Both the position numbers and the translations under genes were made by a program. A stretch of 64,000 nt of DNA. Origin: Acetobacter estunensis (GTDB lineage Bacteria; Pseudomonadota; Alphaproteobacteria; Acetobacterales; Acetobacteraceae). Shown in pieces: positions 29,500 through 63,722 of the stretch. Each line of letters begins with the position of its first letter. Position 1 is the stretch's first letter. The stretch covers positions 1 to 64,000 of the forward strand of contig NZ_WOTH01000014.1 of the NCBI RefSeq assembly GCF_011516945.1. The letters are read 5' to 3'. The notes beneath the pieces are model-generated. The model saw only the letters and a list, made by a program, of their open reading frames with translations, was not told the origin of the DNA and ran no database searches.

Positions 29500-29536
29500 C
29501 AAAAAAAGAAGGGGATCAGGAAAAATCCTGATCCCC
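29500..29536 (-). terminator. Terminator between flagellin and flaF
   Basis: GGGGATCAGGA (29511-29521) pairs exactly with TCCTGATCCCC (29526-29536) with an AAAA loop. The minus strand continues with TTCTTTTTTT. It follows the flagellin stop by about 8 bp and should make flagellin mRNA much more abundant than flaF mRNA. Confidence 0.85.
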
Positions 29537-29544
29537 ACTTGCCC

Positions 29545-31176
29545 TTAGCGGAACAGCGAGAGAATGTTCTGCGAGGACGACTTGGCGATCGACAGCGTGG
29601 AGATCGCAAGCTGCTGCTTCGTCTGAAGCGAGGTCAGCTTGGCGCTTTCCGCCGCCATGTCCGCGTCCGTCAGAGCGCCCACGCCGTTCGTCAGCGCGTC
29701 GCTGAGGTTGGACGTGTACGTCTGCAGACCCGTGATCTGGTTGCTGTAGTTGCCCAGCGTCTGGGCCTTGGAACTGATCGTCGTGATAGCGCTCTGAAGA
29801 GCGGTGACCGCCGTAGAGACACCACTTTTGAGACCGATAGCCAACTGGTCAATAGCCGAACCTGCGGAAGTCGAGAAGTCAGAGACTGTGGTGCCTGCGT
29901 CGGTAGCTGTCGTTTTGACAGATTGCCCGCCAATACTTCCTGCGGTTATAGCGGAAGTAGAGGTGAGTTTTCCTGTCGAAGTGTTATAAGAGACAGCGCC
30001 GTTTGTCGCAGTAGAAAGAGCTGAAAGTGCATCTTTGACGGTGGCACCGGTGGCAAGTTTAATACCAACATTTCCAGTGCCGGTGACGCCATTTGTCAGC
30101 GTTGCCGTTGAAGATACAAATTCGTAAGTGGTACCCCCAACAGTGACTTTATCACCTGCAGATGTTCCGCTGCCATCGCCAAGTGTGACGGCACTTTCAT
30201 CGCCTGTACTGCCACGTGTGATGGTCGCAGAGTTGACCGCCGCACCGGAAGTCATTGAAATTTCACCGGAGCCAGCGCCCACAGACAGAGACCCATCGCT
30301 GTTGAGCGTGGCACTCACTCCTGCGCCGTTCATTGCGCTGACAAGTGCGGACATGGCCGACTTCACAGACGAACCAGCATCAACAGATACGGCGATATTA
30401 CCGTCAGTGCTTACGTTGTCTCCTGTTGTGACAAATTCGAAAGTTTTGCTACCAACAGTTACTAATGTTCCTGCCGAACCCGTCGTCGTTCCACTGGAAT
30501 CGGTCGTCGTCGTCCCAAATGTAATATCGCTGCTGGTCAGTGCGGAGGTATCAATGTGTGCCGTATTGGCGGACGTCATGTTGGCGTAAATGCTCTGCGT
30601 GGATTTTTCCACCGTTGAGCCCGCCGACGAGTCAGACGTAAGCCCCAGCGCATCGACGAGCGTGGTGCTGCTTCCCGACATTGTGCTGAAAGTCTGAGTC
30701 GCGCCCTGAAGATTTGTCAGCGTATTGAGAGTGGTGCCGTTATAGGCATTGGTTGCATCGCTACCGCTGGTCAGCAGATTGACGCCATTGAATGTGGCAT
30801 TGCGTGCATAGGTGTTGACAGAGTCGAGTGCGCTCATGATCTGAGAGGCCATGGCATTGGCGTCGATACCCGTCTGTCCCGACTGCGTGACAGTCGCCTG
30901 CAGCGTTTGAAGCGTAGACGTAATACGATCAACGGCTGAGGTTGCTGTCGCTACCGTTGAAGCGCCAAGGGACAATGAATCACTAACCGCGGATAGACCG
31001 TTGATATTGCCTGTCATGGACGCACCGATGGCATACACCGCCGGATTGTCGGCCGCATTACTGACTTTCTGACCCGTCGAAATGGTGTTTTCGGTGTTGG
31101 TCAGATCATTGGTCGTTGCATTGAGGTTCTCAAGGGCAACGGCCGCAGCGGCATTGGTGTTGATCGAAAGAGACAT
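29545..31176 (-). CDS. Flagellin
   Basis: 543 aa, filament subunit. The N-terminal D0/D1 part (residues 1-140) has SINTNAAAAVALENLN, LTNTENTISTGQKVSNAADNPA and NATFNGVNLL. The C-terminal part (about 430-543) has LQTYTSNLSDALTNGVGALTDADMA and ends in SSSQNILSLFR. The central variable region is enlarged and carries two related units at residues 236-310 and 341-415. That region uses more AT-rich codons than its surroundings. GGAG lies about 10 bases before ATG 31176, just after a perfect leader hairpin. It is probably exported by a flagellar type III system encoded elsewhere. Confidence 0.96.
   Translation of the reverse strand: MSLSINTNAAAAVALENLNATTNDLTNTENTISTGQKVSNAADNPAVYAIGASMTGNINGLSAVSDSLSLGASTVATATSAVDRITSTLQTLQATVTQSGQTGIDANAMASQIMSALDSVNTYARNATFNGVNLLTSGSDATNAYNGTTLNTLTNLQGATQTFSTMSGSSTTLVDALGLTSDSSAGSTVEKSTQSIYANMTSANTAHIDTSALTSSDITFGTTTTDSSGTTTGSAGTLVTVGSKTFEFVTTGDNVSTDGNIAVSVDAGSSVKSAMSALVSAMNGAGVSATLNSDGSLSVGAGSGEISMTSGAAVNSATITRGSTGDESAVTLGDGSGTSAGDKVTVGGTTYEFVSSTATLTNGVTGTGNVGIKLATGATVKDALSALSTATNGAVSYNTSTGKLTSTSAITAGSIGGQSVKTTATDAGTTVSDFSTSAGSAIDQLAIGLKSGVSTAVTALQSAITTISSKAQTLGNYSNQITGLQTYTSNLSDALTNGVGALTDADMAAESAKLTSLQTKQQLAISTLSIAKSSSQNILSLFR
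29932..30471 (-). repeat. Divergent tandem repeat in the flagellin variable domain
   Basis: Unit A (residues 236-310) and unit B (341-415) share the pattern VTVGxxTxEFV, GNxxxxxxxGxxVKxAxSALxxAxNG and a closing beta segment. Examples are GTLVTVGSKTFEFV against GDKVTVGGTTYEFV, and VKSAMSALVSAMNG against VKDALSALSTATNG. They lie 105 residues apart. This suggests duplication of one surface-exposed domain. Confidence 0.65.
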
Positions 31177-31193
31177 GTTGGATTTTCTCCATT

Positions 31194-31222
31194 GGGTTCA
31201 CTGCATTTTTCGCAGTGAACCC
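31194..31222 (-). promoter_or_regulatory. Hairpin in the flagellin mRNA 5' leader
   Basis: GGGTTCACTGC (31194-31204) and GCAGTGAACCC (31212-31222) form a perfect 11-bp stem. The minus-strand loop is GAAAAAT. The stem lies between the flbT stop and the flagellin ribosome-binding site, whose GGAG starts only a few bases after it. No T-tract follows, so it is not a terminator. In Caulobacter, FlbT acts through the fljK 5' untranslated region, which makes this a candidate FlbT target. Confidence 0.6.
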
Positions 31223-31250
31223 ATGAAACGGCGGAAATCCTAAGCTTGGG

Positions 31251-31682
31251 TTAATGCTCCTGAGATTCGTCCGAAAAAATGGACGATGCCGCCTGTTTCA
31301 ATACGGCGTCCTCATGTCGCACGACGCGTCGGGCAAGGCGGATGGCCTTGTAATAATCGCCCGCCAGTGTGGCTTGCATGGCTTCCGTCAGCAGGAACTT
31401 TGCGTGCGCGGACGTGGTCTCCTGCATGAACGTCGCGATGTGCAGACTCGCTTCCGCCAGTGCGGTGACACGCTCTTCCGGCGTGCCGACATAGGCCGTC
31501 TGGAGTGCGTAATAGATCAGTCGTGCCGGAGTCGTGGCTTCATCGGGTGGCATGATCTGGCGACCGAAGAGGAAGTTTGCTCGGTTGGTCAGCCGGATCT
31601 GCGCGGGGGTGAGGAAATGAATCCCCGCGCCATTGATGATCATCCGGTCTTCGGCTTCGAGTCGGATTCCCAGTCCCGCCAT
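31251..31682 (-). CDS. flbT: Flagellar biosynthesis repressor FlbT
   Basis: 143 aa, post-transcriptional regulator that in Caulobacter destabilises flagellin mRNA until the hook is complete. Family features are LRLEAEDRMIINGAGI-like residues near the start (IRLEAEDRMIINGA), NRANFLFGRQIMPPDEATTPARLIYYALQ-type segment and YKAIRLARRVVRHE near the end. It directly precedes flagellin on the same strand. TAAACTTT and GCCGATAG occur upstream (31739-31720) but with wrong spacing for sigma-28. Confidence 0.92.
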   Translation of the reverse strand: MAGLGIRLEAEDRMIINGAGIHFLTPAQIRLTNRANFLFGRQIMPPDEATTPARLIYYALQTAYVGTPEERVTALAEASLHIATFMQETTSAHAKFLLTEAMQATLAGDYYKAIRLARRVVRHEDAVLKQAASSIFSDESQEH

Positions 31683-61275: not shown

Positions 61276-61305
61276 AAAAAGGGCATCCCAAGGGATGCCC
61301 TTTTT
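61276..61305. terminator. Bidirectional terminator
   Basis: AAAAAGGGCATCCC (61276-61289) pairs with GGGATGCCCTTTTT (61292-61305). The A-run and T-run make it work for DUF4167 on the plus strand and for the convergent alkene reductase on the minus strand (stop at 61316). Confidence 0.95.
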
Positions 61306-63691: not shown

Positions 63692-63722
63692 CGCCGGGCG
63701 GAGATTGTCTCTCCGCCCGGCG
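63692..63722 (+). terminator. Terminator after rpsD
   Basis: CGCCGGGCGGAGA (63692-63704) pairs exactly with TCTCCGCCCGGCG (63710-63722) with a TTGTC loop, followed by TTT. It lies 44 bp after the rpsD stop. Confidence 0.88.

Follow-up and report, generated by a model that had tools for sequence, protein, structure and literature searches.

The leader of the single flagellin gene in this Acetobacter estunensis genome carries a hairpin with an A-rich loop, which is probably a cis-acting RNA element of the flagellin 5' untranslated region (UTR) whose loop is bound by FlbT, the product of the gene just upstream. This interpretation draws on the conservation and covariation of the hairpin, on the bias of its loop towards the sense strand, on its specificity for the leaders of flagellin (and flbT) genes and on its restriction to genomes with FlbT. 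The stretch analysed, called the window below, comprises 64,000 nucleotides and is part of a 3.45-Mb genome.

The hairpin and its locus

The genes flbT, flagellin and flaF follow each other in this order on the minus strand, and all three were confirmed by Pfam. The flbT stop codon is at 31251 and the flagellin ATG at 31176, which leaves a gap of 74 nt. The features of the locus are:

31251..31682, minus strand: flbT, the candidate regulator (PF07378, 1.5e-25; AlphaFold model with pLDDT 92)
31240..31254, minus strand: CtrA-like box TTAA-N7-TTAG, a candidate promoter element that overlaps the flbT stop codon and is kept in genus leaders
31223..31228, minus strand: candidate -10 element TTTCAT (TTTATR in relatives), proposed from conserved spacing
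31193..31223, minus strand: perfect 12-bp hairpin in the flagellin leader, TGGGTTCACTGC-GAAAAAT-GCAGTGAACCCA (from sequence, shuffles and RNA folding, z -4.25)
31200..31216, minus strand: conserved hairpin core ACTGC-G-AAAAA-T-GCAGT (5 bp, with a G-U pair that closes the A5 loop)
31206..31210, minus strand: AAAAA loop, in columns that are invariant in the genus alignment A4; AAAA/AGAA loops are enriched class-wide
31187..31190, minus strand: flagellin Shine-Dalgarno site GGAG, from sequence; GGAGAAA is invariant in A4
29545..31176, minus strand: flagellin gene (PF00669, 3.3e-20; PF00700, 1.5e-12), the sole flagellin match in the genome
29069..29491, minus strand: flaF (PF07309, 1.4e-20)

The original prediction of a perfect 11-bp hairpin was right about the perfect pairing but one pair short: the arms of the inverted repeat, TGGGTTCACTGC and GCAGTGAACCCA, occupy 31193-31204 and 31212-31223 and are separated by a 7-nt spacer. 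Its placement between the flbT stop codon and the flagellin ribosome site was correct, and the sequence agrees with the predicted GAAAAAT loop and, together with a terminator scan, with the predicted lack of a terminator tract, since no T tract lies 3' of the hairpin and the scan does not list it. GAAAAAT is the loop on the coding (minus) strand, where a possible G-U pair would close an AAAAA loop.

No such inverted repeat was found in 100 shuffles, that of the hairpin occurs only once in the window, and the leader folds better than all of 200 shuffled versions. However, 2 of 10 64-kb windows simulated with a Markov model also contained perfect short-loop stems of at least 12 bp, and two more perfect short-loop hairpins, of 13 bp, are present in the window (61276-61305 and 63692-63722), which makes the stem by itself no more than moderately surprising. 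The significance of the hairpin comes from conservation and not from the stem itself. A repeat element was rejected as an explanation, the hairpin being single-copy in both window and genome, and a search for plasmid homologs found none. None of ten related loci searched against Rfam 15 gave a match at the gathering cutoff, and the matches of the window were far below it.

The gap between flagellin and flaF contains a perfect 11-bp hairpin (29511-29536, minus strand) followed by TTCTTTTTTT. This arrangement resembles an intrinsic terminator and should restrict read-through from flagellin into flaF.

Conservation within the genus

Alignment A4 comprises 14 genus leaders, that of the window and those of 13 relatives. 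The nearest named relative found is itself named Acetobacter estunensis, with an FlbT that is 84% identical, and the proposed search of relatives' leaders for compensatory changes revealed a U-A to G-C change in this sister. An A-loop hairpin is present in all 14 readable leaders. Each also has GGAGAAAA and, on or close to the flbT stop, the TTAA-N7-TTAG box (in one case TTAA-N7-TTAA), and a TTTATR-like element is present in all except three. Conservation of the stem in close relatives is confined to its inner part: each core pair (columns 35-39) is made by 13-14 of the 14 leaders, but the six that follow outwards by just 4-9. The conserved unit is therefore ACTGC-R-AAAAA-T-GCAGT, and the long perfect stem is peculiar to the window genome. 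Thus the 12-bp stem singled out originally gives way, as the important unit, to an apical stem of 5-6 bp with its A-rich loop. One leader (L017) has the form CCGG-AAAAAAT-CCGG, in which the stem is changed and the loop retained. Covariation within the genus by itself is modest, the observed score being reached by 10 of 500 shuffles.

Flagellin leaders with the exact core occur in 12 of the 15 FlbT-bearing genus genomes, and the other three have a longer loop, a changed stem and a contig end, respectively. Six further copies of the exact core occur in the genus, none of them in a flagellin leader, and five of these come from the 34 genomes without FlbT. FlbT is detectable in only 15 of 49 genus genomes, and flagella are therefore patchy across the genus.

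Promoter-like elements and the predicted mRNA start

The consensus for CtrA is TTAA-N7-TTAA. In most of the genus the flbT stop codon forms the first half of the box; in three leaders (L010, L014 and L015) the box lies off the stop codon yet is kept, and in L017 it reads TTAA-N7-TTAA. On this resemblance the box may be a CtrA site. Together, the box and the candidate -10 element would place the +1 around 31215-31217, close to the A of ACTGC, where the conserved core has its base, and the hairpin would then stand at the extreme 5' end of the transcript. The outer pairs of the 12-bp stem may thus be upstream of the predicted mRNA 5' end and untranscribed, which would explain why conservation of pairing ends at the core. 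Relatives with sigma54-driven leaders often have their first A-loop hairpin starting within a few nt of the predicted +1.

Distribution beyond the genus

Hairpins were counted in the last 90 nt of dereplicated leaders, with stems of at least 4 pairs, of which at least 3 are G-C, and loops of 4-7 nt containing AAAA. The statistical rules were set after the first examples had been seen, and most of the class-wide matches of the covariance model R1 (see below) and the result for flbT come from other sequences. Hairpins of this kind are present in 36 of 57 Acetobacteraceae flagellin leaders (shuffle mean 2.3, maximum 7) and in 14 of 40 leaders of other FlbT-bearing alphaproteobacteria (shuffle mean 1.1, maximum 5), or 17 of 60 when twenty leaders are added. 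Background windows from the same loci gave 1.6% for the Acetobacteraceae and 1.9% for the others (p 2e-50 and 1e-15). The stems found in other Acetobacteraceae are GC stems unrelated in sequence to that of the window, for example CCCGC-AAAAG-GCGGG, and flagellin is positioned differently relative to flbT there. The adjacency of regulator and candidate target that had been emphasised is thus true of the window but immaterial, as other Acetobacteraceae keep the hairpin without flagellin directly downstream of flbT.

In same-class genomes without FlbT none of 24 flagellin leaders has an AAAA-loop hairpin, a contrast that is confounded by phylogeny because these controls have a different flagellin type. 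FljK-type flagellins from genomes in which FlbT was not detected give a mixed picture, with incomplete assemblies, and among them those of G087 and G486 bear an AGAA or AAAA hairpin. The hairpin is also missing from some leaders of FlbT genomes, the strict rule finding it in 63% for the Acetobacteraceae and 28% elsewhere, and several multi-flagellin genomes include paralogs without it.

Among hairpins with Watson-Crick stems, loops with AAAA occur in 47 leaders and loops with TTTT in none, and the element is therefore read as sense RNA and not as a DNA dyad. Counts of G-U versus A-C outside the stems (14 versus 10) were uninformative. Across the examined loci the gene 3' of an AAAA-loop hairpin is flagellin in 44 of 64 cases and flbT in 4 of 64, versus 2 of 20 and 1 of 20, respectively, for TTTT-loop hairpins. 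Enrichment in flagellin leaders is selective for AAAA/AGAA loops class-wide, and loops of UUCG and GAAA type are absent from those of the Acetobacteraceae.

Tandem hairpins and covariation

Many leaders outside the Acetobacteraceae have two or three copies of the hairpin in tandem. One example is the L302 leader (genome G521), in which three consecutive A-loop hairpins are followed by an AGAA hairpin over the Shine-Dalgarno site. Pairing was assessed in the non-Acetobacteraceae set with anchors placed on AAAA alone, without selection for pairing, and 14 of 31 anchors had at least 4 bp around a 5-nt loop; when right arms were re-partnered (500 rounds) the mean was 2.9 anchors and the maximum 7. 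Alignment A7 of tandem leaders contains the hairpins GGGC-AAAAY-GCCC and GAGC-AAAAY-GCTC and a third, TCC-AGAAY-GGA, that covers the Shine-Dalgarno site. Its covariation score is 0.313 versus 0.111 when shuffled (reached in 0 of 500) and at most 0.125 when slid, and two-sided changes are seen in 7 of 12 pairs. A larger tandem alignment (A6) was left out as poorly aligned.

R1, a covariance model of the tandem A-loop leaders, was run over 240 genomes. At E<1e-4 it gave ten matches outside its training set, one of them a near-duplicate of a training leader, and nine of the ten are directly before flagellin starts. The tenth (L305, genome G623) precedes an 81-aa open reading frame that abuts flbT and has no Pfam family; near 1501-1550 of this locus a sigma54-type site is seen together with A-loop hairpins before the same frame. 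All genomes with these matches have FlbT. Weaker matches are mostly elsewhere than before flagellin, and the window genome, with a single hairpin of the same loop type, gives no match at E 0.01 or E 1.

Hairpins before flbT

Run over the Acetobacteraceae, R1 gave weak scores, and six of its matches are no more than some 60 nt away from an flbT start codon. Among 68 dereplicated Acetobacteraceae flbT leaders, seven have AAAA loops and seven AGAA loops (p about 1e-6 each), and TTTT, TTCT, CCCC, UUCG-type and reversed-sequence loops showed no enrichment before these genes. A-loop hairpins directly before flbT were seen in L032, L033, L034, L036, L092, L109, L116 and others; none was found before flbT in Acetobacter. 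Such leaders suggest autoregulation, in which FlbT would control its own synthesis in some relatives. In five other loci (L098, L107, L108, L112 and L131, near 4500) a small gene immediately 3' of flbT (108 aa, MRAYAKSS...) is preceded, at a distance of 8 nt, by the hairpin TCATGC-AAAACG-GCATGG.

Alternative explanations

An explanation independent of FlbT is that the hairpin is a generic stabiliser at the 5' terminus, shielding flagellin mRNA, which is abundant, from decay that depends on the 5' end. Hairpins of the ompA type are 5'-terminal mRNA stabilisers, and a predicted stem-loop at the mRNA 5' end is what the flagellin leaders would share with them: many sigma54-driven leaders start their first A-loop hairpin within a few nt of the predicted +1, and the promoter-like elements of Acetobacter likewise point to a start close to the core stem. 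Shielding would not account for a loop sequence kept as A(A/G)AA while UUCG- and GAAA-type loops are missing from Acetobacteraceae flagellin leaders, for tandem copies in relatives or for co-occurrence with a regulator, the hairpin being missing from the FlbT-less flagellin set and found before flbT. We consider this explanation unlikely.

The three other explanations are less probable still. The palindrome is near conserved promoter-like elements and its core sequence is nearly fixed in the genus, as would be expected if it served the flagellin promoter at the DNA level, as an operator or as part of the promoter, and the RNA structure were incidental; the strand bias of the loop, the variation of stem sequence by lineage with pairing retained, and the extension of tandem copies to the Shine-Dalgarno site make such a DNA dyad improbable. 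It is highly improbable that a long GGAUUU/AAAUCC helix encloses the hairpin and acts as a switch by masking the Shine-Dalgarno site: the helix appears when the window leader is folded to minimum energy, but it has no two-sided pair changes (500 of 500 shuffles equal the observed score), and the CtrA-like box overlaps its 5' half, which is thus probably outside the mRNA, upstream of the start. That the hairpin terminates or attenuates flbT transcription can almost be dismissed: it does lie 3' of the flbT stop codon in the genus, but the U tract is absent, the terminator scan leaves it unlisted, and such hairpins precede flagellin genes also where flbT is not upstream.

FlbT as the probable ligand

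We thus favour an RNA element that is read by FlbT. Its working part would be a short stem displaying an A-rich loop (AAAAA in the window, A[A/G]AA in relatives), and FlbT, encoded just upstream, would most likely bind this loop and hold down translation of flagellin, stability of its mRNA, or both until flagellin can be exported, with repression relieved by flagellin or FlaF acting on FlbT. In other taxonomic orders two or three such hairpins follow each other in tandem, the last of them over the Shine-Dalgarno site. The link to FlbT that was originally drawn from Caulobacter and from gene adjacency finds indirect support in conservation, covariation, restriction to FlbT genomes and the hairpins before flbT in relatives. 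The chances seem to us about even that FlbT reads an alphaproteobacterial RNA code made up of A(A/G)AA-loop hairpins. Single or tandem hairpins would mark the 5' ends of flagellin mRNAs and, in some lineages, the flbT mRNA as well, and the resulting autoregulated circuit would act on translation and couple the synthesis of flagellin to its export. If true, the recognition element of FlbT would be defined. The conserved, loop-defined hairpin offers a definite RNA sequence for experiments and a route to predicting FlbT targets in other alphaproteobacteria.

Binding of FlbT to the flagellin 5' UTR has been proposed (Anderson and Gober 2000, as cited in PMC4347634 and PMC3930126), and in Caulobacter its action on this UTR is reported to promote decay (PMC4347634, PMC3930126). 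In Brucella, FlbT has been proposed to be an activator rather than a repressor, and a 2015 review describes the mechanism as unresolved and does not give a binding motif (both PMC4347634). Our search of the open-licence literature found no earlier description of the A-loop element.

The closest comparison is with the fljK 5' UTR of Caulobacter crescentus, which also belongs to a flagellin of an alphaproteobacterium with FlbT and on which FlbT is reported, in the accounts cited, to act. The window differs in having a CtrA-like box and no sigma54 site, one flagellin and no FljJ-type paralog, and the order flbT-flagellin-flaF. The nearest FljK-like flagellin that we examined (genome G493, 61% identical) has two A-loop hairpins in its leader (L290). 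In Caulobacter the special flagellin FljJ partners FlbT in repression (PMC7591256), a model that cannot apply unchanged to the window genome because it has one flagellin; any protein signal to FlbT would then have to come from flagellin itself or from FlaF.

The CsrA-FliW system of Campylobacter and Bacillus, in which an RNA-binding protein acting on a flagellin leader is coupled to export, is similar in outline, and FlaF-FlbT has been suggested as a possible analogue (PMC4894983). CsrA, however, reads GGA motifs, and the GAAAAAT loop of the window is A-rich and without GGA. Homology of FlbT and CsrA is unsupported by profile comparison: a CsrA-like domain at the FlbT N-terminus (LVLELRxGExMIVNG versus LILTRRVGETLMIG) was rejected at an hhalign probability of 0.6%, obtained with only three CsrA sequences.

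No relative of FlbT was found in the PDB by sequence, and its fold had no significant Foldseek match. The model (pLDDT 92) has a beta N-domain and a four-helix bundle. This C-terminal bundle can be aligned with FliS flagellin chaperones at Z 8-9.6, but unrelated helical bundles score equally well, so that it gives no more than a hint of likeness to FliS.
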